DNA of 64,000 nucleotides from Cyclobacterium xiamenense (GTDB lineage Bacteria > Bacteroidota > Bacteroidia > Cytophagales > Cyclobacteriaceae), in the NCBI RefSeq assembly GCF_009467825.1, contig NZ_WIOK01000004.1:1-64000 (forward strand), in the 5' to 3' direction. Shown piece after piece: positions 8,822 through 33,018 of this stretch. The position numbers and the translations under genes are program-made. The notes below the pieces were generated by a model. It was not told the DNA's origin. It searched no databases and saw only the letters and a program-made list of their open reading frames with translations. Each line of letters opens with the position of its first letter. Within the stretch, counting starts at the first letter, position 1.

Positions 8822-9625
8822 TTAGCGCTGCGCCCATTCATCCAGGAAGAGTTCGCCGATGAGGTAAAGTTTGGCGGTTCCGCTAATGGCTACACGCTCG
8901 CCCTCGCAGCGGCAGTGCAGGTAGCCTTTGCGGGAAGAAAGCTGGGCAGCACGCAGGGTCGGTTTGCCCAGCTGCTCCGCCCAGTAGGGTGCCAGGGTGG
9001 TATGCGCCGAACCCGTTACCGGATCCTCGCTTATCCCCGCTCCTGGTGCAAAGAATCGGGACACAAAATCCAATTGTGTACCTTTGGCGGTGACGATTAT
9101 CCCCCGGGCAGGAAGTGCTGCGATCCGCTCAAAATGTGGCTGCAGATTTTGTATGGCTGCTTCAGAGTCGTAGACCAGCAGGTAATCCGATTTGCCAGCA
9201 AAGGCTTTTGTGGGAGACAGGTCGAAGCAATTGCGGAGTTTTTCGGTTACCGGAATTTCCCGAACGGGGTCCGCCGGAAAATTCAGGGTTAGCTGATCGC
9301 CATCCTTGCAAACCGTCAGGTCTCCGCTCCGGGCAGAATAAAAGTGAATACTGCTGCCCGCATGCTTTTCGAAGGAGAACAGGACAAAGGCGGCAGCCAG
9401 GGTAGCGTGCCCGCACAGGTCCACTTCCACCCGCGGGGTAAACCAGCGGATCTGGTAGCGATCTCTTTCTTTTACGTAAAACGCCGTTTCGGACAGGTTG
9501 TTTTCCATGGCGATCTGCTGCAGTAGCGAATCCGGCAGCCACTCCTGCAGGGGGCAAACAGCTGCCGGATTTCCTGCAAAAACCCGGTCGGCGAAGGCGT
9601 CGATTTGATAGATTTTTTGTTGCAT
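8822..9625 (-). CDS. PhzF family isomerase/epimerase-like protein
   Basis: The ATG at 9625 gives 267 residues beginning MQQKIYQIDAFADRVFAGNP, the standard PhzF start; the longer frame from 9658 adds 11 residues encoded in low-complexity DNA. The family fold is two diaminopimelate-epimerase-like halves. NNLSETAF (residues about 43-50) carries the conserved glutamate, VDLCGHATLAAA (about 70-81) is the first-half motif, and GISEDPVTGSAHTTLAPYW is the second-half motif with the conserved DPVTGSAH. PhzF itself acts in phenazine synthesis, but most family members are metabolic enzymes of unknown substrate, and no phenazine genes are present. It is cytosolic and appears to be a single-gene unit. Confidence 0.9.
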   Translation of the reverse strand: MQQKIYQIDAFADRVFAGNPAAVCPLQEWLPDSLLQQIAMENNLSETAFYVKERDRYQIRWFTPRVEVDLCGHATLAAAFVLFSFEKHAGSSIHFYSARSGDLTVCKDGDQLTLNFPADPVREIPVTEKLRNCFDLSPTKAFAGKSDYLLVYDSEAAIQNLQPHFERIAALPARGIIVTAKGTQLDFVSRFFAPGAGISEDPVTGSAHTTLAPYWAEQLGKPTLRAAQLSSRKGYLHCRCEGERVAISGTAKLYLIGELFLDEWAQR

Positions 9626-10011
9626 GTGTGTGTACGTATGCGAATGTAGGAATTCCATCTTAAAAATGGGCGGTAAGCAAGCTCATTTTCCTGCTAACCT
9701 GCAGCGATTGAAGGGCTTGAAGGTGCCTGGCCACCGGGGAATTTCTGGTCTGGAGGGCGCCGTTTTGCCCAGGTTGGTTGCGCGAAAGCATTCCCGATGT
9801 CTGCACCGCTGACAGTGAAAATCGGCAAAAGGGACCGGTTCCCGTTGGTACGATCGTTTTTTTCGCCTATATTCACCCGCGGATTCGTTAGAATACGAAA
9901 ACAAACCGATGGCAATCAAATTGGAGAATGCAGTGGTCGGTCTGTTTGGTGTATCCGGTGCGTTTCCAGACAGTATTCACCAAATAATCCACGATATACC
10001 CGGTAGTTACC
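9626..10011. other. Divergent intergenic region, nothing recognised
   Basis: This region separates the minus-strand PhzF gene from the plus-strand ThuA-like gene. Open frames on both strands are short, overlap each other and lack any domain signature. No hairpin terminator or clear -7 box was found. Confidence 0.4.
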
Positions 10012-10926
10012 ATGAGAAAAAGCATCTACACCTTACTTTTATTTTTTATTGCGGGCGGCCTGTTTGCGCAGAGTATGAAAGATATTCCGGTCAACGAGGA
10101 ATGGCTGGAAAAAATTGAGTCCCTGGCCCCTTCCGACACCAGAATTGAGGCCCCGGTAAAGAACATCCTGGTTTTTTCCCAGCATACGGGCTTTTACCAT
10201 TGGACCATCCCCCACAACGACGAACTACTTAAAATTCTTGCAAAAAAGACCGGTGCCTTTGAGATTACCATCGCCCGGGATATCGATACGTTTGAAAAAG
10301 AGAACCTAAAGCAGTACGACGCGGTTGTGCTGAATAATTCCAACCCTTCCGGTCCGGATCGGGACCTGTTCGCAGATTTGCTAAAGAAAAATTCCAGTCT
10401 GGATGATGCCCGCATTGCAGAATTGGCCAGCCAATACGAAACCAATCTGATGGAATACGTGGAGGAGGGCGGTGGCCTGTTTATCATGCACGGTGCCATT
10501 ACCGTGCAAAACAATTCCCAAAAATTCAGCTCCATGGTGGGTGGAAGCTTTGACTACCACCCCAAGCAACAGGAAATGCACTTAAAGGAAGTAGACCCAG
10601 GCCATCCCCTGGTACAGGCATTTGATGGCAAGGGGTTCGTTCATACGGATGAGCCTTACTTCTTTAAAAACGCCTATTTTGACTACAACTTCCGCCCGCT
10701 CTTATACATCGAAGCCGATAAACTAGAGGGTGTCAGAGGGGAAGTGAGCAACAATACCATCTACGTGGCCTGGATCAAGCGGCACGGAAAAGGCCGGGTG
10801 TTTTACAGTTCCCCTTCCCACAATGCCCAAAGTTTGGAGCAGCCGGAGTTGCTGCAATTTTTTGTGGATGGGCTCCAGTACGTGGTTGGGGACTTGCCGG
10901 CAGACGATAGCCCGATGAAGAACTAA
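10012..10926 (+). CDS. Secreted ThuA-like domain protein
   Basis: This 304-residue protein begins with a signal peptide (MRKSIYTLLLFFIAGGLFAQ). The mature part is a ThuA/glutamine-amidotransferase-like domain: NILVFSQHTGFYHWTIPHND (about 46-65), YDAVVLNNSNP, a GGGLFIMHGAI core (about 153-163), a GGSFDYHP segment and a final WIKRHGKGRVFYSSPSHN. Related domains in trehalose-utilisation and glycan loci of Bacteroidota are thought to bind or process sugars, but no reaction is established and the classical amidotransferase nucleophile is not obvious. It faces topA convergently and shares a bidirectional terminator with it. Confidence 0.85.
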   Translation: MRKSIYTLLLFFIAGGLFAQSMKDIPVNEEWLEKIESLAPSDTRIEAPVKNILVFSQHTGFYHWTIPHNDELLKILAKKTGAFEITIARDIDTFEKENLKQYDAVVLNNSNPSGPDRDLFADLLKKNSSLDDARIAELASQYETNLMEYVEEGGGLFIMHGAITVQNNSQKFSSMVGGSFDYHPKQQEMHLKEVDPGHPLVQAFDGKGFVHTDEPYFFKNAYFDYNFRPLLYIEADKLEGVRGEVSNNTIYVAWIKRHGKGRVFYSSPSHNAQSLEQPELLQFFVDGLQYVVGDLPADDSPMKN

Positions 10927-11003
10927 GCAGGGTCCTTAGTGGGAGTTTGCCCCACCCATCTTTATGCGGTAAATTCACACTTTCCTTGCCTGTTTCTACA
11001 TAT

Positions 11004-11043
11004 AAAAAATCCGGATAAACGCATGTGTGTATCCGGATTTTTT
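11004..11043. terminator. Bidirectional terminator between thuA-like gene and topA
   Basis: The arms AAAAAATCCGGATA (11004-11017) and TATCCGGATTTTTT (11030-11043) are perfectly complementary over 14 bp. The A-run and T-run at the ends serve as U-tracts for either strand, as expected between two convergent genes. Confidence 0.9.
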
Positions 11044-11063
11044 GTTGAAACCGGGGAACAAAC

Positions 11064-13409
11064 TTATTTTTTCGTTTTCTTCTTCGCAGGAGCGGCTTTC
11101 TTGGGTTTGGCTTTCCCTTTTTTACTGTCTCCCTGGCTTTCGATGATTTCCATGGTTTCAGCAAAGGTCAGCGATTCGGCCTCCTTATCTTTGGGGATCT
11201 TGAAATTGTTTCTACCCATCTTGATATAGGGTCCCCAACGACCGTTCAGTATTTGTAATTCGGGGTTTTCGTCAAAGGATTTGATATGCTTTTTGGCATC
11301 CGCCTCCCGCTTGGCCTTGATCAGTTCGATGGCTTCCTCTTCGGTGACCGATAGGGGATCGTACTCTTTGCCCAAGGATACAAACTTGCCGTCGTGCCGG
11401 ATGTAGGGTCCGAATCGCCCCACGGCGGCCACAATTTTCTTGTCCTCAAAATGGCCCACGTCCCGTGGCAATTTGAACAGTTCCAGCGCATCTTCGAGGG
11501 TCATGCTTTCGATAAACTGCCCTTTCAACAGGCTGGCAAATTGTTTTTCCTCGTCTTCCTGATCCCCGATTTGCACCAATGGTCCAAATTTCCCCAGTCG
11601 GGCAATGACCTTTTTACCGGTTTTGGGATCGATACCCAGCTCCTTGGAGCTGTTGACATCGGTGCGTTTGATGTTTTCCGTTTGCTCTACCTTGGTATGG
11701 AAAGCCCCGTAAAAATTTTGGATCATTTCCTCCCAGGGTTGCTCTCCATGGGCAATGTGGTCAAACTCTTTTTCCACCTTGGCAGTAAAAGAAAAATCGA
11801 TCACGTTTGGAAAGTGCTCGACCAGGAAGTCGTTCACCACCATGGCAATGTTGGTGGGGAAAAGCTTGTTTTTTTCCGTGCCAGTGGTTTCGGTTTTCTC
11901 GGCGGATACAAATGCCCCATCCTTGATTACCATTTCGGTATACTTTCTGGGCGTTCCGTCCCTGGATTCCTTGAGTACGTAGTTTCGTTTCTGTATGGTG
12001 GAGATGGTGGGCGCATAGGTGGACGGGCGACCGATGCCCATCTCTTCCAATTTTTTCACCAGGGAAGCTTCCGTGTACCGGGCCGGTGGCCGGGTGAAGG
12101 ATTGCCGGCCCTTCATTTCGATCAGCTGCAATTCCTGTCCCACGGTTAGGGGAGGGAGCAAGCCTTTGGCAGTGGACTCTTCCTCCTCGTCCTCGTCGGT
12201 GCTTTCCAGGTATACCTTCAAAAATCCCTGAAATTTGATTACTTCCCCGCTTGCGCTCAGCGTTTGATCGGCGTTGGAAATGGCTATGGAAACGTTGGTT
12301 TTTTCCAATTGGGCATCGGCCATTTGCGAGGCGATGGCACGTTTCCAGATTAATTCGTACAGCCGCTGCTCGTTGCGATCGTTTCCGGCCTCGGTAACCG
12401 AGAATTCCGTAGGGCGGATGGCTTCGTGGGCCTCCTGCGCTCCTTCCGATTTGGCAGTGAATTTTCGTTGGTGGTGGTATTCTTTTCCAAAGGCCGACGT
12501 TATTTCGGCTTCTGCACTTTTTAGTGCATCATCCGAGAGATTTACGCTGTCGGTACGCATGTAGGTGATCCTGCCGGATTCGTAGAGTTTCTGGGCGATA
12601 TTCATGGTCTGGGCCACGGAGAAATACAGCTTTCTACTTGCCTCTTGTTGCAGGGTGGAGGTAGTAAAGGGCGCAGCCGGGGTCTTTTTCGCCGGTTTGG
12701 TTTCCAGGGATTTGATGGAAAAATCAGCTTCCAGGCAGTTTTTCAAAAAGGCTTCTGCCTCTTCTTTGGTATCGAACTTCTTGGGCAGTTCCGCTTGCAG
12801 CTGCTTTCCTTCTACGTCAAAAAGCGCGGTGATCTTGTAGGAAGAGGTAGCGTCGAATTTTTCGATTTCCCGCTCCCGGTCTACAATGAAACGTACCGCC
12901 ACGGATTGTACCCGGCCTGCGGACAGCCCGGCTTTTATTTTTTTCCACAAGACCGGTGAAAGTTCAAAACCCACCAATCGGTCTAGAATTCGTCGGGCTT
13001 GCTGCGCATTGACCAGGTCCAGGTCGATTTTGCGGGGAGATTCCAGGGCCTTGATGATGGCGGATTTGGTGATTTCCCGGAACACAATGCGTTTGGTATT
13101 TTCGTCTTTCAGGTTGAGAACCTCCTTTAGGTGCCAGGAAATGGCCTCGCCTTCGCGGTCGTCGTCACTTGCCAGAAAGATGGTCTCTGCCTCCTTAACT
13201 AATTTTTTTAATTCCCGGATTACCTCCTTTTTATCGGGGCTGACCTCGTACGTTGGTTTGAATTTATTTTTTATGTCAATGGCATTTTCCCCTTTGGGAA
13301 GATCCCGCACATGCCCGTAACTGGAAGTAACTTTGAAGTCCTTTCCAAGGTAACCTTCTATGGTCTTGGCTTTTGCAGGGGACTCGACAATGACTAAATT
13401 TTTTGGCAT
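11064..13409 (-). CDS. topA: DNA topoisomerase I
   Basis: This 781-residue type IA topoisomerase relaxes negative supercoils by a 5'-phosphotyrosine intermediate. The TOPRIM domain opens with LVIVESPAKAKTIEGYLG (residues 5-22) and has the acidic DDDREGEAI motif near residue 84. SAGRVQSVAVRFIVDRER (about 167-184) and the active-site GRITYMRTDSVNLS follow, with the catalytic tyrosine at about residue 283. The C-terminus holds repeated GRFGPYI/GRWGPYI units in place of zinc fingers, then a lysine-rich tail ending KKKTKK, as in other Bacteroidota enzymes. It is essential housekeeping. The gene is monocistronic and convergent with the ThuA-like gene. Confidence 0.97.
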   Translation of the reverse strand: MPKNLVIVESPAKAKTIEGYLGKDFKVTSSYGHVRDLPKGENAIDIKNKFKPTYEVSPDKKEVIRELKKLVKEAETIFLASDDDREGEAISWHLKEVLNLKDENTKRIVFREITKSAIIKALESPRKIDLDLVNAQQARRILDRLVGFELSPVLWKKIKAGLSAGRVQSVAVRFIVDREREIEKFDATSSYKITALFDVEGKQLQAELPKKFDTKEEAEAFLKNCLEADFSIKSLETKPAKKTPAAPFTTSTLQQEASRKLYFSVAQTMNIAQKLYESGRITYMRTDSVNLSDDALKSAEAEITSAFGKEYHHQRKFTAKSEGAQEAHEAIRPTEFSVTEAGNDRNEQRLYELIWKRAIASQMADAQLEKTNVSIAISNADQTLSASGEVIKFQGFLKVYLESTDEDEEEESTAKGLLPPLTVGQELQLIEMKGRQSFTRPPARYTEASLVKKLEEMGIGRPSTYAPTISTIQKRNYVLKESRDGTPRKYTEMVIKDGAFVSAEKTETTGTEKNKLFPTNIAMVVNDFLVEHFPNVIDFSFTAKVEKEFDHIAHGEQPWEEMIQNFYGAFHTKVEQTENIKRTDVNSSKELGIDPKTGKKVIARLGKFGPLVQIGDQEDEEKQFASLLKGQFIESMTLEDALELFKLPRDVGHFEDKKIVAAVGRFGPYIRHDGKFVSLGKEYDPLSVTEEEAIELIKAKREADAKKHIKSFDENPELQILNGRWGPYIKMGRNNFKIPKDKEAESLTFAETMEIIESQGDSKKGKAKPKKAAPAKKKTKK

Positions 13410-15415: not shown

Positions 15416-15449
15416 TTTTGGATAAGATACCATATTTTTTGGTTAAGAT
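15416..15449 (+). promoter_or_regulatory. AraC-type direct-repeat operator before susC
   Basis: TTTTGGATAAGAT (15416-15428) and TTTTGGTTAAGAT (15437-15449) differ at one base and start exactly 21 bp apart, two turns of the helix. The same arrangement precedes the DPP-IV gene (29538-29571). The element ends 65 bp before the susC start codon. The 21-bp direct repeat is the classical spacing of AraC half-sites, so an AraC-type protein is the likely binder. Confidence 0.65.
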
Positions 15450-15477
15450 GTAGCACAGGTTTGGGGAAGTACTAGTC

Positions 15478-15485
15478 TAACTTAG
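15478..15485 (+). promoter_or_regulatory. Putative -7 box of the susC promoter
   Basis: TAACTTAG matches the Bacteroidota TAnnTTTG box at all but one fixed position and starts 29 bp after the second half-site. A comparable box sits 30 bp after the second half-site at the DPP-IV promoter. No good -33 box is visible, as expected for an activator-dependent promoter. Confidence 0.4.
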
Positions 15486-15513: not shown

Positions 15514-18500
15514 ATGAAAAAATCTACCCTACATCTCCCTTGCCACAGGGCCTCCCTGTGCCTGGGCTTGCTGCTGTTTCTAGGGCTATTTGCCTCGGAA
15601 GCGAACGCACAAAACCGGGTCAGTGGTACCGTTCGCAACGAGTCGAACGAGGTCCTGCCCGGTGTCAGCATTCTGGTGGTCGGTACCACCATTGGTACAG
15701 TTACGGATATTGACGGCCAATACCAACTCGCCGTTCCCGAAGGCTCCGAACGTCTTTCTTTTTCCTTTATCGGTTTCGAATCCCAAACCGTCGACGTTAA
15801 CGGACGTAGCACCCTCGATGTGGTCATGCGGGAAGATTCTCAGGACCTGGGCGAGGTGGTCGTGACGGCCTTTGGCGTCCAACGTGAGCGAAAAGAACTG
15901 GGCTACACCGTACAGGCACTGAAACCCGAGGACCTGACCAGTGCCAACGATTTCAACCTGGTCAATTCCCTTAGTGGAAAAATTGCCGGGGTACAGGTAA
16001 CCAATAGCGGTTCTCAGGTGGGCGCCTCCTCCCGAATCGTCATTCGGGGAAATGCTTCGTTCTCCGGAAACCAACCCCTGTTTGTCGTAGACGGAATCCC
16101 AATCGATAATTCCAGCAGCAACCTGGGAGGTGCCGGCGGTCTGGATTATGGCAATACCGCCGCAGACATTGATCCGGAAAACATTGCCTCACTTACCGTA
16201 TTAAAAGGCGCCAATGCGGCGGCCCTGTACGGCAACCGGGCCACGCATGGGGTCATCCTGATCGAAACCAAAAAAGGGCAGCAGGGCAAACAGGGACTGG
16301 GTGTGGAACTGAACTCCTCCCTGGTGTTTGATGTACCCAGCTTTTTTATGGATTTTCAGAACGACTACGGACCCGGGCAACGGGGCGGAGAGTACGATTG
16401 GCAGCAATACCTGCAAAATAATCCCGGTTCCAACCTGAGCTATAATGAATACGCGAAACAAAACAGCTACAACTATGTGAACGGAATCGGCGGTGGTATC
16501 AACGAAAACGCAACTTCCTGGGGACCGCGTTACGATGCCGGCTTGCTCCTGGATCAGTGGGTGAAGGGCCCCAATAGCCCCTGGGAGTCCATCCCAAATA
16601 ACATCCACGACCACTATTTTCAGACTGGAAGTAACCTGATCAATCAGGTAGCTGTGACCGCACGAGGCAAAGAAGCCTATGGGCGTGTTGCCTTTTCAAA
16701 CCGTCAGATGACGGGGACCTTTTTCAATACCGACCAGACGGTCAATACCTTCAATGCCAGTCTCACCCTGCTGCCCACCGATAAATTAAAAGTGAGTACA
16801 GATTTCAATTACGTCAACCGATTTAGTGACAACATCCCAGTAGTTAGTTATGGCTCCATGACCAAACTGGCCTGGGGTGCTTTTCGAAACATTCCGCTGG
16901 ATGAGGTGAAAAAGGTCTATCGGGAGCATGGCAACGAAATGGGCAGCGGCTACAACCAAAATGCCAACAATTTCTATTATGACCTGGAAAACACCAACAG
17001 CATGGACCGAAAACGTTTCTTTGGAAACGTCAATATAGATTACCAGCTTAACGACTGGCTTTCTGCCAATATGGTAACGGGCCTCGATTACTATACGGAA
17101 GAGAGAAAATCCATCACCCTCTCCCGTACACGGGCCAATATCAACAACAACCGCGGAGGGCAGTTTTCCCTTACCAACCTCAGCAGGCAGGAATTTAACA
17201 GCGATATCCGCTTGAACATCAACAAGCAATTTCTGAATGACTTTTCCCTGGTGGCCCTGGTGGGCGGAAACTTCCGGCAAAATACCGCCGATTTCCTTTC
17301 CCTCAGCGCACCCGACCTGGCGGTTCCGGACCTGTTTAATATTTCCAATGTGCGCGGAACACCGGGTACAAGCATGTCCGAAAGTCAGCGGGAAACCTAT
17401 AGTATCTATTCTTCCGCTACCTTGGGTTACAAAGGGTACCTGTTTCTGGGGGCGACCGGAAGAAATGACTGGAGTTCTACGCTGCCGGAGGAGAATCGCT
17501 CCTATTTCTACCCTTCCGTTAACCTGGCCTTGACCCTATCCGAAGCGCTGAACATGACTTCCAGGACCCTGAGTCATGCACAGGTCCGGGCCAGTTTGGC
17601 GCAGGTGGGTTCGGATACCGATCCGTACCAACTGATGGGAACTTATGGAACAACTACCTTTAACAATATTTCTTTATTTACTCCCACTGCTGTAAAGCCG
17701 CCCACCAACCTGCTGCCGGAAATGACCACCTCCTTTGAAGTGGGGGCTGATCTGCGCTTTTTCTCGGATCGCTTATCGCTGGATGCAACCTATTACCGGC
17801 AGGTGACCGAAAACATGATCTTGCAGGTGCCGACCGCCCGGTCCACGGGTTACGCTTCCCAATTGATCAATGCCGCAGAAATTGAAAACAAGGGCATTGA
17901 AATCATTTTGCGAGGTAGCCTGGTTCAACGGGGAGACTTTTCCTGGGACGCGACCGTAAACTGGGCCAAAAACACCAGTACGGTGGAATCGCTGTACCAG
18001 GGGCTGGAAAACATTACCATCAGTTCCGGTTTTGGCGGGGTTCGGCTGGTCGGCACGCCCGGGCAGCCCTGGGGGGACCTGAGTGGCCTGCCCTACGTGC
18101 GAGACGATAGTGGCAACATCATGATCAATCCAAACGGGACACCCATGACCACCAACCAACAGGTGATTTTGGGAAATGTTACCCCGGATTGGATCGGAGG
18201 GATACAGAACAGCTTCCGGTACAAGAATGTTACCTTCGGAGGATTGTTTGACTTCCGCATGGGGGGAGATTTCTTCAGCACCACGTATTGGCATTCGTAT
18301 CCCACAGGAGCTTTTGAAAACAGCGTCCAAAACAACGTGCGGGCCGAGGGGATTGTGGTCGAGGGTGTTCAGGGAGATGGCTCACCAAACGATGTTCGCA
18401 TCTCGGCGCAAGACTATTACAATGGATCCTGGGTGTGGAACAACCATGAGTACTCCATCATCGATGGGTCCTTTATAAAACTGCGGGAGCTCACGCTGGG

Positions 18501-18714
18501 CTACCGATTTTCGGTTTGGAAGTTGCAAAACGTCAACGTTTCGGTGTTCGGTCGTAACCTCGCGATCCTGCACCGAAGCGCCAAAGCAAAGGAGCTGGGC
18601 CTGGATCCCGAATCCGCTTCCCAGATGGGAGGGGGTGAGGCCGGTACCGGCTTTGAAAACTTCATGCCGCCCACCAATCGGTCCTATGGATTCAATCTAC
18701 GGATCGCCCTATGA
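15514..18714 (+). CDS. SusC/RagA-type TonB-linked outer-membrane transporter
   Basis: This 1066-residue protein has a signal peptide (about 1-33, ending EANAQ), a carboxypeptidase-regulatory-like beta domain (about 35-125, starting RVSGTVRNESNEVLPGVSIL), and a SusC-type plug (about 130-240, with GVQVTNSGSQVGASSRIVIR and the GNQPLFVVDGIPID signature). The barrel ends with aromatic FNLRIAL. SusC proteins form the outer-membrane channel for oligomers captured by a paired SusD lipoprotein. The SusD gene follows 52 bp downstream. The locus also has a sulfatase, so a sulfated glycan or glycoconjugate is a reasonable guess for the cargo. Expression is probably driven from the operator and -7 box just upstream. 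Confidence 0.95.
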   Translation: MKKSTLHLPCHRASLCLGLLLFLGLFASEANAQNRVSGTVRNESNEVLPGVSILVVGTTIGTVTDIDGQYQLAVPEGSERLSFSFIGFESQTVDVNGRSTLDVVMREDSQDLGEVVVTAFGVQRERKELGYTVQALKPEDLTSANDFNLVNSLSGKIAGVQVTNSGSQVGASSRIVIRGNASFSGNQPLFVVDGIPIDNSSSNLGGAGGLDYGNTAADIDPENIASLTVLKGANAAALYGNRATHGVILIETKKGQQGKQGLGVELNSSLVFDVPSFFMDFQNDYGPGQRGGEYDWQQYLQNNPGSNLSYNEYAKQNSYNYVNGIGGGINENATSWGPRYDAGLLLDQWVKGPNSPWESIPNNIHDHYFQTGSNLINQVAVTARGKEAYGRVAFSNRQMTGTFFNTDQTVNTFNASLTLLPTDKLKVSTDFNYVNRFSDNIPVVSYGSMTKLAWGAFRNIPLDEVKKVYREHGNEMGSGYNQNANNFYYDLENTNSMDRKRFFGNVNIDYQLNDWLSANMVTGLDYYTEERKSITLSRTRANINNNRGGQFSLTNLSRQEFNSDIRLNINKQFLNDFSLVALVGGNFRQNTADFLSLSAPDLAVPDLFNISNVRGTPGTSMSESQRETYSIYSSATLGYKGYLFLGATGRNDWSSTLPEENRSYFYPSVNLALTLSEALNMTSRTLSHAQVRASLAQVGSDTDPYQLMGTYGTTTFNNISLFTPTAVKPPTNLLPEMTTSFEVGADLRFFSDRLSLDATYYRQVTENMILQVPTARSTGYASQLINAAEIENKGIEIILRGSLVQRGDFSWDATVNWAKNTSTVESLYQGLENITISSGFGGVRLVGTPGQPWGDLSGLPYVRDDSGNIMINPNGTPMTTNQQVILGNVTPDWIGGIQNSFRYKNVTFGGLFDFRMGGDFFSTTYWHSYPTGAFENSVQNNVRAEGIVVEGVQGDGSPNDVRISAQDYYNGSWVWNNHEYSIIDGSFIKLRELTLGYRFSVWKLQNVNVSVFGRNLAILHRSAKAKELGLDPESASQMGGGEAGTGFENFMPPTNRSYGFNLRIAL

Positions 18715-18766
18715 GAGGGAATTGTACGAGTCAGGTAAACCAATATTTCGCTAAAATGTGCTCCAA

Positions 18767-20245
18767 ATGAAACATACCATCAACTATAAACTCACCGGGT
18801 TCGTGCTCGCTTCCGCCCTGATTTTCGCTTCTTGTACAGAAGATTGGAACGAGATGAATGTCAACCCCAATCAGCCGTCGGAAGTACCTGCCAGCAACGT
18901 GCTGGGTGCCGGCATGACCGTAGTAGCCGGACAACTGTTCGGCGAACGCATCGGTATTTATTACGCGGGCACCTGGTCCGGTCAACTGGCAGCTATTGGT
19001 GCCGGGGATTACGAATTCCGGGTGGATATCAATAACAGCCAATGGGACAACCTGTACCGGGGCATGGCCTATTTTGTGGATGCAGCGGAAATCGCCCGGG
19101 AGGAAGGAAACCAAAACCTGGAAGCAGTTTCCCTGATCATGAAAGCGTATACGGCCCATCAGGTTTCGGACATGTGGGGAGATATTCCCTACACACAAGC
19201 CTTTTTACTGGATAAAGAGGGGATTTTGAGTCCGGAATTTGACACGCAGGCAGTGGTGTATGACACAATTCTGGAAGAACTGGAAGCAGCTAATTCCATG
19301 CTGGATCCAAGTGGTCCGGCAATCGGAGTAGGCGATTTTATCTATGGAGGGGATATTGCAAAGTGGCAAAAATTCGCCAATTCCATCCGGTTGCGGGTGG
19401 CCATGCGCATGTCGTCCGTGGTCCCTCAGGATGCGGCGTCGGTCTTGAACCAAATTCTGGGCAATCCTTCCACCTACCCGGTATTTGAAGACCACAGCGA
19501 TAATGCCTACTTGCACTGGCCGGGGATCAGTTCCAATATCGAACCCTGGCGGCAGCGCCTGGGCACACCCACCAACAAAAACGATCAATACCGCACCAAT
19601 TACGACCTGATCGAACGGCTCAAGGACATGGACGATCCGAGATTACCGGTCTATGCCGATGAGAACCTAAATGGGTTCTTCAATGGGTACAAAATGGGAA
19701 TCGGACAGACCAGCGATCCCATGAATGCCCAGGCAAATGTATCGCATATCGGAGACCGATTTGGATACGATGACGAGGGTTTTTCTCCCTTTATGAATGC
19801 GGCCCAGGTTTGGTTTATCAAAGCCGAAGCGTTTGAAAGAAACCTCGTTGCTGGAGGCAATAGCCAGGAAGCCTACGAAACAGGCATTACTGTATCCCTT
19901 CAGGAAAACGGTATCTCCCAGGACCTGATCGACGATTACTTGCAACGTCCGGGCGTTGCCTGGGATTCCGGTACGTCCACTAACCTGGAAAAAATCCGAC
20001 TGCAGAACTGGATCGCTCTGTATAAGCAAAGTGTGGAAGCCTGGGCGGAGGTACGCAGAACGGATGTGCCCCTGCTGGACAAGGTTTCCAACGACTACGC
20101 CGCCAACCACAACCGACCGCCGTTCCGCATGGCCTATCCAGCCAATGAAATTGCCCACAACCAACGTTTCCCGACCGATGTTGTCGAGGAAGATATTTTC
20201 TATGGAATACAGGTATGGTGGGATACCCGGACCGGGGTAGAATAG
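18767..20245 (+). CDS. SusD/RagB-like outer-membrane lipoprotein
   Basis: The ATG at 18767 gives 492 residues; a GTG three codons earlier is less likely. The start MKHTINYKLTGFVLASALIF is a lipoprotein signal, with the lipobox cysteine in FASCTED. WNEMNVNPNQPSEVP is the N-terminal signature of the SusD-like_2 subgroup. Helical TPR-like stretches follow, for example YFVDAAEIAREEGN and KAYTAHQVSDMWGDIPYTQ. The protein caps the SusC barrel and binds the incoming oligomer at the cell surface. It pairs with the preceding susC gene. A strong hairpin lies between it and the next gene. Confidence 0.94.
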   Translation: MKHTINYKLTGFVLASALIFASCTEDWNEMNVNPNQPSEVPASNVLGAGMTVVAGQLFGERIGIYYAGTWSGQLAAIGAGDYEFRVDINNSQWDNLYRGMAYFVDAAEIAREEGNQNLEAVSLIMKAYTAHQVSDMWGDIPYTQAFLLDKEGILSPEFDTQAVVYDTILEELEAANSMLDPSGPAIGVGDFIYGGDIAKWQKFANSIRLRVAMRMSSVVPQDAASVLNQILGNPSTYPVFEDHSDNAYLHWPGISSNIEPWRQRLGTPTNKNDQYRTNYDLIERLKDMDDPRLPVYADENLNGFFNGYKMGIGQTSDPMNAQANVSHIGDRFGYDDEGFSPFMNAAQVWFIKAEAFERNLVAGGNSQEAYETGITVSLQENGISQDLIDDYLQRPGVAWDSGTSTNLEKIRLQNWIALYKQSVEAWAEVRRTDVPLLDKVSNDYAANHNRPPFRMAYPANEIAHNQRFPTDVVEEDIFYGIQVWWDTRTGVE

Positions 20246-20477: not shown

Positions 20478-22238
20478 ATGTATGTACGACTCTTTGTCAG
20501 TGGCTTATTGCTTGGGATTAGCGGTCTGCTGATCCATGCCACCACTCCTCAGCCGAAAAATTCGGCCCTTGCGACCAATGAAATTTCCCAGCGGGCAAAC
20601 GGACTGCACGGCTACATCGGCTACAGTTCGCCAAGGCGGCCGGAAGGATTCGGTGCGGGCATAGGCTTTTACACAGCGGTATGGCCGCTGGTAGAAAAGC
20701 CCCTTGCCGGATTTCAAATCGGACTCCCCGGCAATTGGATCATTCCGGATAATCCGGACAACAAGGACATGCCCTGCTGTCCCGAAGGTACCATCGCCCG
20801 TACCTGGGAACCCCGGGGACCTACCTGGGCCAGTGTGTTTCAAACCCAGGAAGGGGGCCTGGGCTACTGGCGGGGAAACCGCTACCACTACGGACCACCC
20901 AAATTCAGCATGAACGGGGTACCCGATTGCTACAATTCGGAAATTGCCTCTCCCGGTTGGCCCTTTTTTTACCGGGCGGCTGCCTTGCCGGAAGACCAGC
21001 TGGGGATCGCTCAGCTTAGCAACCGTATACTGGTGCCACCCGATGGAATCACCTTTGTGGAAGACCTGGAAGGAAAGTTTTTGGGCTATACGCACATGAT
21101 GCTGCCACTTACCGAAAAGCGCGAAGGACCACCACCTACTGGCGACCAAAGCTGGACCCTGTTTCTCAATTCCGCGAATTTTAAGGGACCCGTGGCGTTT
21201 TATATTCCCGAAATGTGGAGTCGCCTTTCCAAAGAGTACCCCGCCATCGAAGGCATGGGGTTGGACGCCCGGGAAGGAACCATGGGCGGAGGAGGTGCCA
21301 TGGAAATCAATACCGTACCCTCCTTCGAAATGAAAACACCGGAAGGGGAATTGTACATTAAAATCCCCCAATTGCAATTTCCCGTCGATGCGCAGGGACG
21401 TTCGTTACTCGTGCAGGACGTTACCTATTACTCCAAAGACGCCTTGTTTAATCCCGTAAAGGCCTGGAAAAACGGAGGCGAAGCGGTTTCCGGAGCCTTT
21501 CGCGAAGCCCATTCCTGGAAACCTGATATCAGTCCCAGGAAAATTTCTCTCGATGGGGGTGCTCAACTTAATGCCGGAGGCACCAAGCTGGGCGGCCTGG
21601 AATCGGTCGTGGAAGCCATCGTAACCGATTCCAACGCCTTCGGTTTGCAGTGGCAGGAAAACCCCTTTGGAAAGCAGGGTCGTTTTCCGGAGTACTTCAA
21701 GCAAGTGGGAGACCTGCGGGTGCCCATACCGGAAGCGGAGGCCCCGGAAGAGTTAACAGAAAGTACGTTCGCTCTGGCAGGTACCGAGAAGGAATACATC
21801 AACTGGCGGGATGGAAACGAGATCGTTTCGGGAAATTTTCGGATTGACAAAGAGCTTCCCTATTCTACGCCCACTACGGGTGCCTGGGCGCATCCGGGAC
21901 CTGCTTCCGAAGCTTATTCCGTAGACCTAAAGGATGGATCAACGGTTACCTACAAGTGGTACCGCTTTATTGACCAGCCTTCTTTTCAGCAATTTAACTG
22001 GAGCACCGAAGAAAAAGCCGCGCTGCAGGCCCTGGTAGAAAAGATCCACCGAAACTGGACCATTGACAAAACCTACATGGCACCGCCCAGTTCCGGCGGG
22101 CTGGTCGCCATTGACCCGGTGTTGATCCTCAGTCCTCCGGCCGGCATGGAAGTGGGGTATGTTCCCATCGTGGTCCGTCAGGAGCGGAAATTGGTTGCGG
22201 AATCGGATCGGTCGACTTCGGCACTTGCTAGAAGATGA
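20478..22238 (+). CDS. Secreted protein of unknown function in the SusCD-sulfatase locus
   Basis: This 586-residue protein starts with a signal peptide (MYVRLFVSGLLLGISGLLIHA). It is rich in tryptophan, glycine and proline, with runs such as GYIGYSSPRRPEGFGAGIGF, NKDMPCCPEGTIARTWEPRG and EGGLGYWRGNRYHYGPPKF. The CC pair near residue 96 and cysteine in PDCYNSEI could form disulfides. Later segments (ISLDGGAQLNAGG, GAWAHPGPASEAYSVDLKDG) look beta-rich. I recognise no catalytic family. Its position between susD and a sulfatase suggests that it binds or acts on the same polymer in the periplasm or at the surface. A protein-like second frame over its end (22159-22428) leaves the exact C-terminus slightly uncertain. 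Confidence 0.8.
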   Translation: MYVRLFVSGLLLGISGLLIHATTPQPKNSALATNEISQRANGLHGYIGYSSPRRPEGFGAGIGFYTAVWPLVEKPLAGFQIGLPGNWIIPDNPDNKDMPCCPEGTIARTWEPRGPTWASVFQTQEGGLGYWRGNRYHYGPPKFSMNGVPDCYNSEIASPGWPFFYRAAALPEDQLGIAQLSNRILVPPDGITFVEDLEGKFLGYTHMMLPLTEKREGPPPTGDQSWTLFLNSANFKGPVAFYIPEMWSRLSKEYPAIEGMGLDAREGTMGGGGAMEINTVPSFEMKTPEGELYIKIPQLQFPVDAQGRSLLVQDVTYYSKDALFNPVKAWKNGGEAVSGAFREAHSWKPDISPRKISLDGGAQLNAGGTKLGGLESVVEAIVTDSNAFGLQWQENPFGKQGRFPEYFKQVGDLRVPIPEAEAPEELTESTFALAGTEKEYINWRDGNEIVSGNFRIDKELPYSTPTTGAWAHPGPASEAYSVDLKDGSTVTYKWYRFIDQPSFQQFNWSTEEKAALQALVEKIHRNWTIDKTYMAPPSSGGLVAIDPVLILSPPAGMEVGYVPIVVRQERKLVAESDRSTSALARR

Positions 22239-22390: not shown

Positions 22391-23956
22391 ATGATATTTT
22401 CGATGCAGGAAACGTTGTTTTTCGATAAAAAATGGATGCTTGGATTGCTAATTTCCTGGAACAGTATGTGCCACCATTCGATGGCCGCAAGCCCGCAGGC
22501 GCCCCGCCCCAACATTATTCTATTCCTATCGGATGATTTGGGTTATGGAGACCTGGGATGCTATGGGAATTCCATCATCCAAACCCCACACCTGGATCAA
22601 TTTGCCAGGGAAGGGGTGCGCATGACCGACATGCATTCCGCCGCATCGGTTTGTTCCCCTTCAAGGGCCGCAATTCTCACCGGAAGGAACGGGTACCGAA
22701 GCGGTTTCTACAACATTGCCGGCTTTTTCGGAACGACCCTCAGCAAAGACGAAATCACCCTGCCCCAACTGCTGCAGGAAGTGGGCTATGAAACCGCATT
22801 TTTTGGCAAATGGCACCTATCGAAGCTGGAATCGCCGGAAGAAGTATCCGTAAACGAAATGGGTTTTGACTATTCCCTGGCCACTTCCGTCAATGCCTTT
22901 GGAACAGGACCGAAAAACCCGGAAAAATTCGTCAGAAACGGGGTTCCCGAAGGTCCGATGGAGGGCTGGTACGTGGACATCGTTACCCGGGAAGCAAGCA
23001 GCTGGATCGCTGGGAGAGGGAATTCCGACAACCCTTTTTTCCTGATCGTTTCGACCAACGAGCCGCACACCCCGCTGGATCCGCCGAAAAGCTTCGCAAG
23101 CGCTTATGATACGGAGGAGGTGCGGAAACTATCCGGGCAGGTTTCTTACGGAGGCGTACCGCGGCCTACCAAAGATTTGACGCACCATTCAAAGGAATAC
23201 TACGGAACGGTAGCGCAGCTAGACCATTCTTTTGGCACGTTTATGCGCTTTATTGATGAGCAAGGATTGCGCGAATCCACCCTGGTCATTTTCACCAGCG
23301 ATAATGGTCCGGAATATCCCGTTACCCTGGAAGAGTCCAAAGGCGAATGGGAAGACCCCATTCGGGACAACTGTTTTGGTACCCCCGGAATACTGCGGGG
23401 CATGAAGCGGTATCCCTACGAGGGGGGGCATCGCGTTCCCGGCTTGATTCGATGGCCCGGACAGATTCCCGCCGGGACGGAGAGCGATCGGCTCTTTAAC
23501 GGGACCGATTTCCTCCCCACGCTGTGCACACTGGCCGGCACCGCCATACCGAAGGACCGAACCATCGATGGTACGGATGCTTTTCAGGCGTTTCTCGGAA
23601 AAGACTACGAACGTGAAGTTTTACCTATCTGGTTTTTTCTGTTGAATGCTTCTGACATGCCTGGAATGGCCCAAATGGCCATGCGCGATTCGGAGTACGT
23701 GTTGGTGGGCAGACTGGGCCCTGCCCGTGGAGACTTTATTGGTCTGCCAGGTCCGGGAACCTATCCGGCTGTGGATTGGCTGAAAACTGCCGTTCCCGAC
23801 TCCTTTGAACTGTACAACATTAAAAAAGATCCAGGTCAAACCCGGGATATTTCGCAGCAGGAATACGGGCGGTTGCTGGATTTGATTCCCAAAATGCAAC
23901 AACTTTGGCTGGACATCCGGGACGAAGGCCCCTGGTGGGGACGGATTCCCGATTAA
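22391..23956 (+). CDS. Type I (formylglycine) sulfatase
   Basis: This 521-residue arylsulfatase-family enzyme hydrolyses sulfate esters. [20 protein letters not shown] (about 38-57) provides the first metal-binding aspartates. The maturation motif [13 protein letters not shown] places the cysteine that becomes formylglycine at residue 88. FGKWHLSK carries the conserved lysine and histidine, and TSDNGPE the later metal-site Asp-Asn. The CxPSR form is processed by an aerobic-type or anaerobic-type maturase that must be encoded elsewhere. The N-terminus has a weak hydrophobic segment ([10 protein letters not shown]), and ATG codons at 22391, 22403 and 22436 are all possible starts. It sits in the SusCD locus and implies a sulfated substrate. 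Confidence 0.92.
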
Positions 23957-24025
23957 ACCCATCTCTGTTGTTTTTTTATTAGGTGTATTTCATTTATCTT
24001 TTGAACAGAATCGTTGACAAAACCC

Positions 24026-26761
24026 ATGAAGTTAAAATTTAATGCAAAACAGGCGCTTGTTTTCTTATTTATTGCCTTGGCTTGCGAAAACAATTCCGAC
24101 AAGAAGACCACCATGGAAATCTCGCCTGATGGTTTTATCCTTCAGGAATCCGATCTACCGGCTTACGAAAAAAACATCGATCATAGAGGATTACTGGAAG
24201 CCCTTGGCGACAGGCACGGGGAGTCCATGCGTACCGGAGAACACATCTATACGAATACCTGCGCCACGTGCCATGGGGATCCGGAACAGCAGGGATCCTT
24301 GCCGACGGCATTTAAATTTTGGGAGGGCACGTTTAAGGTGGGAAACGATCCCTATTCCATCTACCAGACCCTTACCCGCGGTCACGGTGCCATGCCTCCC
24401 CAGGTAAACCTGACGCCTGTGGAAAAATACGACGTTATTCACTACATACGCGAAACGTTTGTGGCCCCGGAAAACCCCACCCAATACCTTGCCCTGAACG
24501 AAGCGTACCTGGCAGGTTTGCCTGCTGGCAGCAGCATGGGGCCGGAACCCCGGGAATACAAGCCCTGGGCGGAGATGGATTACGGTAATTTTCTGATCAA
24601 CACCTACGAACTGGTACCGGCGGATGCAGCCCCCAGGCAGCGGTCCACCGGGCCGGTGCAGCCGCTCCCGGATGAGGATTTTAGCAAGGCTAATTTTGCC
24701 TATAAAGGCATTGCCGTTCGACTGGACGAAGGAAGCGGGGGCGTGGCTGCAGGAAATGCCTGGATGCTATTTGATCACGACCTGATGCGGGTAGCCGGCG
24801 GCTGGACAGGAGAGGGTTTTATCGACTGGGAAGCCATTCTTTTCAACGAAAAACACAACATTTCGCCGAGAACGATCGGAGAACTTCACTTCGAAAACGA
24901 AACCGGCCCCGGCTGGGCGCATCCTCGAAGCGGAACGTTTGAGGATCCCCGGTTTCAGGCCCGGGACGGACGCAGATTCGGCCCCCTTCCCCGGGATTGG
25001 GCACAGTACAAAGGGCTGTATGCGTACGAAGACCGGACAATCGTTTCTTATACCGTAGGCGATACACCTGTTTTGGAGACATTCGGTGTTGCGTATTCTG
25101 GCGATCGACCCGTTTTTACCCGAACGTTGAACCTCAGCCCTTCGGGTGAATTACTTAAAATGCGGGTGGCTCCAGTGGGAACAGAAGTAGCCCTGAGGGG
25201 GTCAGGAGCGGAGCTGGTAGAGGAAAACGGCTACCAGCTACTGCATGTCACGGATACTGACCCAATCAAGATCAAGCTATTTCTGGCGGCACCGGGCTTT
25301 ACAGGCCTGCAGGAGTACGTCCGTAATGCCGCTCCCGCCGAATCGTTATCGGCGTTTATCAGTGGAGGGCCCGCCCGCTATCCGCAACTTCTGGAGACGG
25401 CCATAATACCGGGGGAGCAGGAGGGTGCTTTTCAGGTAGATATTTTGAATCCACCGTTTAACAGTCCCTGGAAAAACCAGCTGCGCTTGAGTGGGCTGGA
25501 TTTTTTCAAAGACCGAAACAAAGGCGTGGTTTGTGCCACGGATGGAGACGTTTGGCTGGTGGAAGGATTTACCGAAAACGAGGGAAAACTAACCTGGCAG
25601 CGAATCGCTTCCGGGCTATTCCAGCCCCTGGGAATCAAGGTAATTAACGAAGAAATTTTTGTAACCTGCCGGGACCAAATCGTCCGGCTGCAGGATTACA
25701 ATGGGGATGGAGAAACCGACTTTTACGAAAGCTTCAACAGCGATCATCAGGTGACCGACCATTTTCATGAGTTTGCCATGGGCTTGCAAGCCGATGCAGA
25801 AGGGAATCTGTACTATGCCAAGAGTGCCCGTCATGCCCGAGAACCCCTGGTACCGCAGCACGGGACCTTGCTACGTGTCAGTCCCGATGGGGAGCGCACG
25901 GACATTATTGCTACGGGATTTCGGGCGGCCAATGGGGTCTGCCTCAATCCGGACGGTACCTTTATTGTCACCGATCAGGAGGGGCACTGGAACCCCATGA
26001 ACCGCATCAACTGGGTGGAAGAGGGCGGTTTTTATGGGAACATGTTTGGGTTTAATCCACCGGCGGATAGCACCGACTCCGGAATGGAACAGCCGCTGGT
26101 GTGGGTAGAGCGGGAGCGGGATCGATCGCCCTCCGAATTGCTTTGGGTGGATAGTAAAAAATGGGGAGCCTTGAACGGTAAACTGCTCAGTTTCTCGTAT
26201 GGTTACGGAAAGATCTATCTGGTTCCATTTGAAAAACTGGACGGTCAGGTACAGGGAGGGATTGTAGAGCTTCCCTTACCTCGTTTTGCCACCGGCGTGA
26301 TGCGGGGTCGGTTCAATCCGGAAGACGGTCATTTGTATCTTTGTGGGCTATCTGCCTGGGGTTCGACGCAGCCCCAATTGGGAGGACTCTACCGCATTCG
26401 CATGACCGATACCCCGGTGAATCTGCCGGTAGGAATTCAGGCCCAGGAAGATGGGGTGCTACTAACCTTTACCGAAAAACTGGATGAAAACAGCGTAGAA
26501 AATTTGGGCAATTTTACCGTTGCTACCTGGGATTTACTGCGGTCAAGAAAGTACGGATCCAAGCATTACAACGAACAGGAATTGCCCCTGGAGGCGGCCG
26601 AATTGGGTCGGGATGGAAAATCGGTAAAGCTAAAAATCCCTGGTATTCAACCCACATGGGTGATGGAGATCCACTATTCGTTGGAAAGCGAAAGCGGCGA
26701 AGCCGTGGAAGGATTGATTCAAAACACCATTCACAAGCTGGGAGAGGCATCTTCCTTGTAA
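24026..26761 (+). CDS. Lipoprotein with cytochrome c domain fused to a propeller-type dehydrogenase-like module
   Basis: The ATG at 24026 gives 911 residues; a TTG four codons earlier is less likely. The start is a lipoprotein signal (ALVFLFIALACENN). A class I cytochrome c lies at about residues 65-145 with CATCH (Cys79, Cys82, His83) and a GAMPP methionine-ligand region. The middle (about 200-480) resembles the DUF6797 type (AWMLFDHDLMRVAGGWTGEG). The last part is a beta-propeller like PQQ or sorbosone dehydrogenases (GLQADAEGNLYYAKSARHAR, GFRAANGVCLNPDGTFIVTD). A surface or periplasmic oxidoreductase that passes electrons to its own heme is the natural reading, but the cofactor and substrate are not proven. 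It is the last gene of the SusCD run. Confidence 0.8.
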   Translation: MKLKFNAKQALVFLFIALACENNSDKKTTMEISPDGFILQESDLPAYEKNIDHRGLLEALGDRHGESMRTGEHIYTNTCATCHGDPEQQGSLPTAFKFWEGTFKVGNDPYSIYQTLTRGHGAMPPQVNLTPVEKYDVIHYIRETFVAPENPTQYLALNEAYLAGLPAGSSMGPEPREYKPWAEMDYGNFLINTYELVPADAAPRQRSTGPVQPLPDEDFSKANFAYKGIAVRLDEGSGGVAAGNAWMLFDHDLMRVAGGWTGEGFIDWEAILFNEKHNISPRTIGELHFENETGPGWAHPRSGTFEDPRFQARDGRRFGPLPRDWAQYKGLYAYEDRTIVSYTVGDTPVLETFGVAYSGDRPVFTRTLNLSPSGELLKMRVAPVGTEVALRGSGAELVEENGYQLLHVTDTDPIKIKLFLAAPGFTGLQEYVRNAAPAESLSAFISGGPARYPQLLETAIIPGEQEGAFQVDILNPPFNSPWKNQLRLSGLDFFKDRNKGVVCATDGDVWLVEGFTENEGKLTWQRIASGLFQPLGIKVINEEIFVTCRDQIVRLQDYNGDGETDFYESFNSDHQVTDHFHEFAMGLQADAEGNLYYAKSARHAREPLVPQHGTLLRVSPDGERTDIIATGFRAANGVCLNPDGTFIVTDQEGHWNPMNRINWVEEGGFYGNMFGFNPPADSTDSGMEQPLVWVERERDRSPSELLWVDSKKWGALNGKLLSFSYGYGKIYLVPFEKLDGQVQGGIVELPLPRFATGVMRGRFNPEDGHLYLCGLSAWGSTQPQLGGLYRIRMTDTPVNLPVGIQAQEDGVLLTFTEKLDENSVENLGNFTVATWDLLRSRKYGSKHYNEQELPLEAAELGRDGKSVKLKIPGIQPTWVMEIHYSLESESGEAVEGLIQNTIHKLGEASSL

Positions 26762-28395: not shown

Positions 28396-28453
28396 GGTTG
28401 CTATTGTTTTGGTCTGTAGTTAAATGTAGTGGTATTTGCCGCCGATCCATTTT

Positions 28454-28471
28454 CAAATTTTAGCTAATTTG
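28454..28471. promoter_or_regulatory. Palindromic site between sdaA and the AraC gene
   Basis: CAAATTTTAGCTAATTTG has the outer arms CAAATT and AATTTG and an internal TTAGCTAA palindrome offset by one base. It lies in the 176-bp divergent promoter region, 58 bp upstream of sdaA and 100 bp upstream of the AraC gene. It may be an operator serving one or both genes. Confidence 0.35.
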
Positions 28472-28571
28472 TATACTATCTTAGCAATTCGCTGATTATT
28501 TGTATGCTTTTTTGCTTTCTATCTGCATTTGGTCTAAATTAATCGAGTGAGTAACCATTGTTCCTTAAGCC

Positions 28572-29447
28572 ATGCAGCCATTACACTTTAAAGTACCCCG
28601 ATTAAAAGAAGAGACCATCCGGGTGGAATGTTGGGACCTGGATAATTTTTTCGAACCCATCCATTACCACGAAGAGTTTCAGATTTCATTGATCCGGGAA
28701 GGGGAGGGTTCCCTGTTTGTTGCGGAAAGCGTCATCCCCTTTAAGAAAGGGGAGATTTACCTTTTTGGCAAGAATCTTCCACACGTATTTCGAAACAAAA
28801 ACTTTGCCTATGCCGGTAGCGGGCATCCTAAGGCAAAGGCCGTCTCGGTATTCTTTAATCAGGATGTGCTTAAAAGTTCCCTAAGTGATATACCGGAAGC
28901 CTATGCCATACAGCGATTGATTGATTTTTCGGTGTATGGGGTGAAGGTTTCCGATTCCAAACAAACAGAACTCAGCCGAAAACTGGCCGTGCTTCCCGAA
29001 AAAAATTCGTTTGAACGATTTCTGGGGCTGTTGGATATCCTTGAATGCATATCTAAAGACAACAACCTCCATTTTATTTCATCTCTGGGCATTCCCTTAC
29101 ATTCCGTACAGGAGAATTTACCCAAGATAAACCTGGTTTTTGATTACGTAAGGAAAAATTTCAGCGAAAAGATCAGCCTCAAACAAGTAGCGGCATTGGT
29201 AAACATGTCGCCGACGGCCTTTTGCCGGTATTTTAAGTACAAAAGCCAAAAGACCTTTTCCCGGTTTTTGATAGAAGTTCGGATAGCCAATGCCTGCCGC
29301 CTCTTGTACCAGGATGATTTCAATACCTCCGAATGTTGCTACAGTTCCGGCTACAACAACCTTTCCAACTTCCACAAACATTTTAAAAGTGTCACCGGTA
29401 TGACGCCGCTTGAATACAGAAACAATATCCTGAAACAATCGAATTGA
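28572..29447 (+). CDS. AraC-family transcriptional regulator with cupin domain
   Basis: This 291-residue protein begins with an AraC-type cupin (FEPIHYHEEFQISLIREGEG, about 27-46; FKKGEIYLFGKNLPHVF, about 57-73) that should bind a small effector. The C-terminal 100 residues are the double helix-turn-helix (KINLVFDYVRKNFSEKISLK, VNMSPTAFCRYFKYKSQKTF, then SGYNNLSNFHKHFKSVTGMT). It is transcribed toward the DPP-IV gene, and a direct-repeat operator lies 91-124 bp past its stop codon. A matching operator precedes susC. It is therefore the prime candidate regulator of both operons; the hybrid sensor at 57900 is the alternative. Confidence 0.9.
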   Translation: MQPLHFKVPRLKEETIRVECWDLDNFFEPIHYHEEFQISLIREGEGSLFVAESVIPFKKGEIYLFGKNLPHVFRNKNFAYAGSGHPKAKAVSVFFNQDVLKSSLSDIPEAYAIQRLIDFSVYGVKVSDSKQTELSRKLAVLPEKNSFERFLGLLDILECISKDNNLHFISSLGIPLHSVQENLPKINLVFDYVRKNFSEKISLKQVAALVNMSPTAFCRYFKYKSQKTFSRFLIEVRIANACRLLYQDDFNTSECCYSSGYNNLSNFHKHFKSVTGMTPLEYRNNILKQSN

Positions 29448-29537: not shown

Positions 29538-29571
29538 TTTTCGTTAAAATACCATACCCTTTGGATAAAAT
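29538..29571 (+). promoter_or_regulatory. AraC-type direct-repeat operator before the DPP-IV gene
   Basis: TTTTCGTTAAAAT (29538-29550) and CTTTGGATAAAAT (29559-29571) start 21 bp apart, the same period and half-site type as before susC. The spacer ACCATA is identical at both loci. The -7-like TATCTTTA (29601-29608) follows 29 bp later. The start codon at 29702 is about 90 bp further, so the leader here is longer than at susC. Confidence 0.65.
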
Positions 29572-32926: not shown

Positions 32927-33018
32927 GCGTTGGGTAAGCCAGGAAATTTTATAGAGATTTACACACGGGTATTTCTACCCGCACCGGCTTGGTGCACCCA
33001 AACTGTATGGAACGAACC

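Follow-up and report, generated by a model that had tools for sequence, protein, structure and literature searches.

Introduction

The araI1-I2 operator of Escherichia coli AraC, at araBAD, consists of two direct half-sites 21 bp apart that are read by a regulator with a cupin domain and two HTH motifs, and its proximal half-site lies next to the -35 region. XylS, at the Pm promoter, is another AraC-family activator that acts on direct repeats beside the core promoter. Promoters of Bacteroidota carry a box at -7, a position that we use below to place a TAnnTTT box. To our knowledge, few operators of this kind have been worked out in Cytophagia.

For Bacteroides thetaiotaomicron, the accessible part of Ravcheev et al. 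2013 (PMC3878776) predicts that 16 HTCS regulators use direct repeats with a mean spacing of 21 bp, so that the 21-bp geometry is already known. Our literature search found no description of the regulator, operator or regulon presented here in Cyclobacterium, and the accessible portions of PMC11253607 and PMC12125979 contain nothing on this operator.

Here we analyse a 64,000-nucleotide stretch of Cyclobacterium xiamenense DNA (the window) in which 21-bp direct repeats precede a susC gene and a dipeptidyl peptidase IV (DPP-IV) gene. This signal very probably marks where a neighbouring AraC-type protein switches on a scattered gene set, perhaps a regulon for the breakdown of a sulfated sugar-and-protein food source.

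Results

Operators in the window

Operators 1 and 2 lie 14.1 kb apart, upstream of the ORF starts of susC (15514) and DPP-IV (29702). Operator 3, before the serine ammonia-lyase gene, is a third, weaker copy that is absent from the earlier sequence-only reading of this DNA.

15416-15449, + strand: operator 1, half-sites 15416-15428 (TTTTGGATAAGAT) and 15437-15449 (TTTTGGTTAAGAT), 21-bp period, 5' of susC
15478-15485, + strand: -7-like box TAACTTAG of the susC promoter, 28 bp after the second half-site of operator 1
29538-29571, + strand: operator 2, half-sites 29538-29550 and 29559-29571 (TTTTCGTTAAAAT/CTTTGGATAAAAT), spacer ACCATA, 5' of DPP-IV
29601-29608, + strand: -7-like box TATCTTTA of the DPP-IV promoter, 18-nt spacing, one base further off than at susC
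28446-28489, - strand: operator 3 (weak), 5' of the serine ammonia-lyase gene, in the divergent region common with the AraC gene
28421-28428, - strand: -7-like box TACATTTA of operator 3, 17-nt spacing, as at susC

The sequence-only reading had described half-sites exactly 21 bp apart before susC with a box 28 bp further on, and the same layout, ACCATA spacer included, before the DPP-IV gene about 14 kb away. Both descriptions agree with the coordinates above, apart from the extra base before the DPP-IV box. Allowing up to three mismatches, the 21-bp pair occurs twice in the window and in none of 100 dinucleotide shuffles, which argues against chance; the same search of the whole 5.78-Mb genome returned just operators 1 and 2, and a backwards control pattern gave one match. 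Single half-sites (up to two mismatches) are mildly enriched, with 16 in the window against a shuffle mean of 8.5 and 1 of 100 shuffles reaching 16.

Operator 3 scores 10.4 bits with a PWM that omits the -7 box and 24.0 bits with one that includes it; its second half-site by itself scores 1.0 in half-site scoring, and with model R2 (see below) the site reaches 17.8 bits, at E 0.013 in its own genome. Its half-site TAAGATAGTATA is similar to the Flavobacteriia form.

Genes of the module

The operators flank the following genes.

15514-18714, + strand: susC, SusC/RagA TonB-linked outer membrane protein (TIGR04056 595 bits, cut-off 368)
18758-20245, + strand: susD-like lipoprotein (PF12771, E 2e-91)
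20478-22238, + strand: conserved 586-aa protein of unknown family, co-conserved with the operon
22391-23956, + strand: sulfatase (PF00884, E 2e-59)
24014-26761, + strand: cytochrome c plus DUF6797 protein (PF13442, PF20601)
26824-28395, - strand: L-serine ammonia-lyase, fused alpha/beta (PF03313; TIGR00718 237.1 bits, just below the cut-off of 243.2)
28572-29447, + strand: predicted AraC-type regulator, cupin-like N-terminal domain and two HTH (PF12833, PF00165, AraC_binding, fold, co-distribution)
29702-31930, + strand: dipeptidyl peptidase IV family protein (PF00930, E 1e-84)
32009-32926, + strand: DHDPS-family enzyme (PF00701; below every NCBIfam cut-off)
32989-34413, + strand: Xaa-Pro aminopeptidase-like protein (M24 and AMP_N; below NCBIfam cut-offs)

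In 16 of 17 named loci (from Cyclobacterium, Algoriphagus, Lunatimonas, Cecembia and two further MAGs), the serine ammonia-lyase gene is a neighbour of the AraC gene, although truncated in one of them; the DPP-IV gene is likewise a neighbour in 16, as a fragment in Cecembia, and the miss is a contig end in both cases. The 586-aa protein is 71-84% identical across 12 orthologues and has no match in Pfam, NCBIfam or PDB sequence searches, and its structure prediction has a mean pLDDT of 33, which makes the model unusable. A relative of this protein with 34% identity sits 3' of another operator site (locus L153). For the DHDPS-like protein, a PDB sequence search returned generic family members.

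By family and fold, the predicted product of 28572-29447 is an AraC/XylS family regulator. Its C-terminal AraC-type HTH pair is recognised by PF12833 (70 bits, cut-off 33.6) and, in two stretches, by PF00165 (51 bits, cut-off 26.6), and the structure model places helices at 184-290 in the C-terminal part. The cupin-like N-terminal sensor/dimer domain is matched by AraC_binding (23.8 bits, cut-off 21.1), with Cupin_2 falling under its cut-off. Foldseek matched the predicted fold to full-length ToxT, Rns and CsvR and to the regulatory domains of AraC and RhaR, at 9-15% identity, whole-chain TM-scores of about 0.4-0.5 and large rmsd. A PDB sequence search found relatives of the C-terminal part only. 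The window's own genome holds 14 matches to this protein.

Conservation and architecture of the sites

The susC-upstream site is kept in all eight aligned Cyclobacterium sequences and in five orthologues from other genera, and a DPP-IV-upstream footprint is seen in 16 of 17 loci; both stand out amid poorly alignable intergenic DNA. The exception, Algoriphagus lacus (L056, left out of alignment A1), has the regulator and no site before DPP-IV. Upstream of the serine ammonia-lyase gene, a site of the form GnTAAGATAGTAtA...GcTAAnAT, mostly with a TAnnTTT-like box, could be followed by eye through 18 of 18 aligned loci.

When 29 sites of the susC and DPP-IV classes are aligned, G5, T7, A8, A9, A11 and A18 are invariant, as are their partners 21 columns on (G26, T28, A29, A30, A32 and A39); T12 is invariant too, and its partner T33 nearly so. 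Among strong half-sites on the same strand and 5-60 bp apart, 45 of 46 pairs are spaced at 21 bp, as counted with a matrix that itself derives from 21-bp pairs.

The position of the box is equally strict. A matrix lacking the -7 box found 36 distinct second-region sites, in 34 of which TAnnTTT starts exactly at column 62; the background rate of this motif elsewhere, taken over 27 of these sites, is about 0.0006 per position. The 27-site subset, which drops three sites of at most 17 bits and six of G007 that nearly repeat those of G008, has the box in 26. TTTG is missing from columns 35-48 of all 27 sites, 11 of which have TTG at columns 35-36. Two direct half-sites 21 bp apart, in a fixed position beside a predicted core promoter, together with the domain plan of the regulator, agree with the araI1-I2-type geometry to which the sequence-only reading had compared the repeats.

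Counterparts in Flavobacteriia

Arenibacter, Algibacter, Cellulophaga and Flavivirga encode an AraC homologue that is 41-48% identical and has similar neighbour genes. By ORF listing, four of eight loci (L063, L065, L069 and L070, at about 9000-11800) have two tandem AraC-like genes between serine ammonia-lyase and DPP-IV, the first of which is confirmed by Pfam in L065; Cyclobacteriaceae have a single gene at this place.

A predicted, diverged form of the 21-bp operator is present before both DPP-IV and susC in these genomes. At the DPP-IV promoters, all eight loci can be aligned over a TAnTATTG box and a second half-site, TTnGCTAA. Lying 21 bp upstream of that half-site, the first one, TAAAATAGTAT, is clear in L064-L067; the other four loci (L063, L068, L069, L070) have an altered version. 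A repeat of 21-bp period, GTTAAnATAGTA...nTAAnATA, appears ahead of the susC position in six of the eight, with susC itself identified by ORF listing in L065, L069 and L070. These diverged sites were recognised by alignment and half-site matrix; the Cyclobacteriaceae model gave no significant match in five Flavobacteriia genomes with 41-48% homologues (best E 0.03).

The sites occur with the AraC gene

We computed the co-distribution of the operators and the AraC gene directly. The plain window pattern (up to two mismatches, ACCATA spacer) is found in all eight Cyclobacterium genomes with an AraC orthologue and in none of the four without; three-mismatch matches lacking the ACCATA spacer occur in G004, G009 and G011, of which G004 and G011 are non-carriers with one each. 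For a wider comparison we used model R2, which includes the -7 box and was built from 41 of 53 aligned sites, the 12 DPP-IV sites with 18-nt spacing being left out. Over 99 relatives, R2 sites at E <= 1e-8 were present in all nine genomes with an orthologue of at least 75% identity and in one of 90 others (Fisher p 6e-12, uncorrected for kinship). R2 also found sites, at E <= 7.2e-9, in every one of eight more carriers, which comprise Algoriphagus, Cecembia and Lunatimonas genomes and a Cytophagales MAG. The training sites of R2 came from the nine carriers and five of these eight; G099, G100 and G103, none of which contributed to training, still score 3e-14, 3e-11 and 7e-9.

The one exception, G045, which supplied no training site, matches only the last 38 codons (254-291) of the AraC gene and has no site of at least 17 bits before its DPP-IV. 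Its module (G045:C24, L211) is decayed: DHDPS is a short match, and within the 12 kb fetched there is no susC-susD match. A susC-type operator now precedes the cytochrome-DUF6797 gene there. Fifteen non-carriers have one to three weak R2 matches each (E 5e-5 to 0.01), and we read the lowest of these, in G053 (E 5e-5), as chance.

Part of this co-distribution reflects module inheritance, because the regulator gene and its window target operons form one conserved module, and since the genomes are related, sites found in different species cannot be counted as independent events. The susC operon of C. jeungdonense, C. salsum and C. roseum lies on a different contig from the AraC gene and not within its flank, yet keeps the site, as expected for a trans-acting regulator.

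Further sites point to a scattered regulon

A first, sequence-only model of a 44-bp site, trained without second-cluster sites, found strong sites in other regions of seven of the eight Cyclobacterium genomes with the AraC gene; in C. lianum (G003), just the two known sites scored high. In the four Cyclobacterium genomes that lack the gene, the best scores were 15.6 to 18.9 bits. Within the window's own genome, further sites on contig C24 precede a GH78-like gene, a second susC, GH127 and GH106, and targets in other genomes include TauE, sulfatases, an M24 Xaa-Pro peptidase and other SusC genes. The final scan of fetched loci gave 113 sites, of which 97 stand before a gene like an annotated seed, nine before another ORF and seven before no called ORF; most downstream genes were named by BLAST to annotated seeds rather than by profile search. 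The sequence-only reading had proposed that a genome scan with an operator matrix should reveal further 21-bp pairs in promoter regions of this and related genomes, and that an AraC-type 21-bp operator joins the SusCD-sulfatase-cytochrome locus to the peptide locus. The scan did reveal such pairs, and the regulon gains support from the footprints and the co-distribution as well.

R2 scores of second-cluster sites spread widely, from 22 to 60 bits. A tblastn search of the second cluster's fetched stretches found two weak histidine-kinase matches, and neither an AraC gene nor the HTH part of an HTCS. We considered a 1230-aa ORF of this cluster as a possible HTCS and rejected it, its Pfam content being F5/F8-type C and a secretion tail. 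Close to the GH78-like gene, at G000:C24:21853-24066 (L138), there is a second DPP-IV paralogue (about 40% identical).

Which regulator reads the sites?

We assign a probability of about 0.87 to the reading that the predicted operator pairs are operators of the AraC-family protein 28572-29447, coupling the window operons to the distant cluster.

Some chance is left that this protein reads the window sites while the second cluster answers to a different AraC-type regulator, encoded elsewhere, whose site is similar. Such a division could explain why second-cluster sites form subtypes (for example TAATATACCACACATTTTGG) and why they scored lower in the first model, which had been trained without them. 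However, the second-cluster sites have the same invariant columns and the same -7 spacing as the window sites, and no site reaches E <= 1e-8 in the four Cyclobacterium genomes that lack the AraC gene. C. lianum, in which the window sites are kept and R2 finds just two weaker further sites, fits one or two regulators alike.

It is considerably less probable that the operator is bound by the output domain of an HTCS, whether that of 57900-62030 or another, even though these proteins also carry an AraC-type HTH that is predicted to act on 21-bp direct repeats. One HTCS is encoded within the window, and the motifs predicted for Bacteroides HTCS regulators in the accessible text of PMC3878776 are direct repeats averaging 21 bp apart. 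Against this, orthologues of HTCS 57900-62030 occur in G004 and G011, with a broken copy in G006, all genomes without a strong site; eight of the nine non-Cyclobacterium genomes with sites have no orthologue at E <= 1e-200; and the second cluster's fetched stretches lack an HTCS HTH part, as noted above. The sequence-only reading had named both proteins as candidates: the AraC protein is favoured by its co-distribution with the sites, and the HTCS of 57900-62030, whose distribution does not follow them, we reject as the regulator, a rejection that applies to this HTCS only.

That the operator instead marks SusC promoters throughout the genus, which the sequence-only reading had offered as a fallback, or housekeeping promoters, is very improbable and we reject it. 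SusC genes are the targets of 37 of the 113 final-scan sites (several species pooled) and nearly all sites have a TAnnTTT-like box. The majority of the 113 targets, however, are not SusC genes; the sites found account for only 2 of the 53 SusC genes in the genome; and 4 of the 12 Cyclobacterium genomes lack any site at E <= 1e-8.

Discussion

A proposed mechanism

Under regulation by the AraC protein of the window, a dimer would bind two direct-repeat half-sites, approximately GnTAAnATAnCATA and TTTGGnTAAnATGnnGGA, which at 21 bp, or two helical turns, would face the same side of the DNA. A TAnnTTTA-like -7 box follows at a fixed distance, and the promoters have no recognisable TTTG -33 element; this combination makes a polymerase-recruiting activator the most likely role, probably ligand-dependent and acting in the manner of AraC at araI1-I2. 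If the TAnnTTT box is set at -7, the proximal half-site presumably falls at about -51 to -35, close to araI2, and the placement of the box and the missing -33 element suggest a class-II-type activator. Computation shows the operators and how they are conserved, the constant -7 spacing, the genes downstream and the co-distribution with the AraC gene; from there, binding by the 28572-29447 protein, activation, the dimer mode and a ligand are inferred. The regulator would tie a distant cluster of rhamnosidases, sulfatases and a second SusCD to the SusCD-sulfatase-cytochrome operon, to the DPP-IV/DHDPS/Xaa-Pro peptidase operon and to the serine ammonia-lyase gene.

What the regulon may degrade

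The targets include rhamnosidases, a beta-L-arabinofuranosidase family, sulfatases, a sulfite-exporter family protein, proline-specific peptidases and serine ammonia-lyase. A decorated proline-/hydroxyproline-rich glycoprotein would explain this mix, and GH127 is linked to hydroxyproline-bound arabinose. It is tempting to speculate, though we consider it rather doubtful, that a single soluble AraC protein, which has its counterparts in Flavobacteriia as well as in Cytophagia, runs a scattered regulon that dismantles a sulfated, rhamnose-/arabinofuranose-decorated, proline/hydroxyproline/serine-rich glycoprotein of algal or plant cell-wall type. On this tentative scheme, GH78, GH106, GH127 and the sulfatases might remove glycans, TauE might deal with the released sulfur, SusCD might serve uptake, DPP-IV and Xaa-Pro peptidases might cleave the peptide, and serine ammonia-lyase and the DHDPS-family enzyme might act in amino-acid catabolism.

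In Algibacter lectus, a gene near that for a 4-hydroxyproline epimerase encodes a protein sharing 63% identity with the DHDPS-family enzyme; the epimerase itself scores 575 bits with NF010578 (cut-off 376). There (L069:16753-20436) the module runs on into DHDPS, aldehyde dehydrogenase and 4-hydroxyproline epimerase genes. These neighbours suggested 4-hydroxyproline catabolism as the purpose of the system, but none of the 12 Cyclobacterium genomes matches NF010578 at E <= 0.001, and the hydroxyproline part of the proposal is therefore weak. Ulvan degradation was considered as well, and a literature search on it brought up a biosensor paper. In L034 and L042, distant AraC homologues (33-34%) adjoin partly fetched epimerase-like genes (70-80% over 78-91 residues), which hints that the connection between hydroxyproline use and this AraC clade may be an older one.

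The analysis yields a testable regulon with a precise predicted operator, a fixed promoter geometry, a named regulator and targets in 17 carrier genomes. It links glycan and peptide use under one proposed regulator, and it offers a way to approach the substrate of a SusCD system to which the unknown-family protein 20478-22238 belongs. Once the ligand is known, the operator-promoter pair could serve as an inducible system.

Comparison with known systems

In predicted fold, the regulator resembles the known structures of ToxT, Rns, CsvR and RhaR, at the low identities given above. XylS at Pm offers a parallel in its direct repeats beside a core promoter, with half-site sequences and a core promoter that differ from ours. 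The HTCS regulons of B. thetaiotaomicron, as presented in the accessible text of PMC3878776, share with our system an AraC-type HTH and the susCD operons of polysaccharide loci as targets. Unlike the HTCS regulators, the AraC protein proposed here is soluble and has neither a histidine kinase nor a receiver, and its regulon takes in proline-specific peptidases and serine ammonia-lyase. With araI1-I2, the Cyclobacterium sites have in common two direct half-sites 21 bp apart, of which the proximal one is predicted to lie near the -35/-33 region, and a cupin-plus-two-HTH regulator, whereas the half-site sequence is another one, the promoter has a Bacteroidota -7 box and no TTTG -33 element, and the predicted targets are many.
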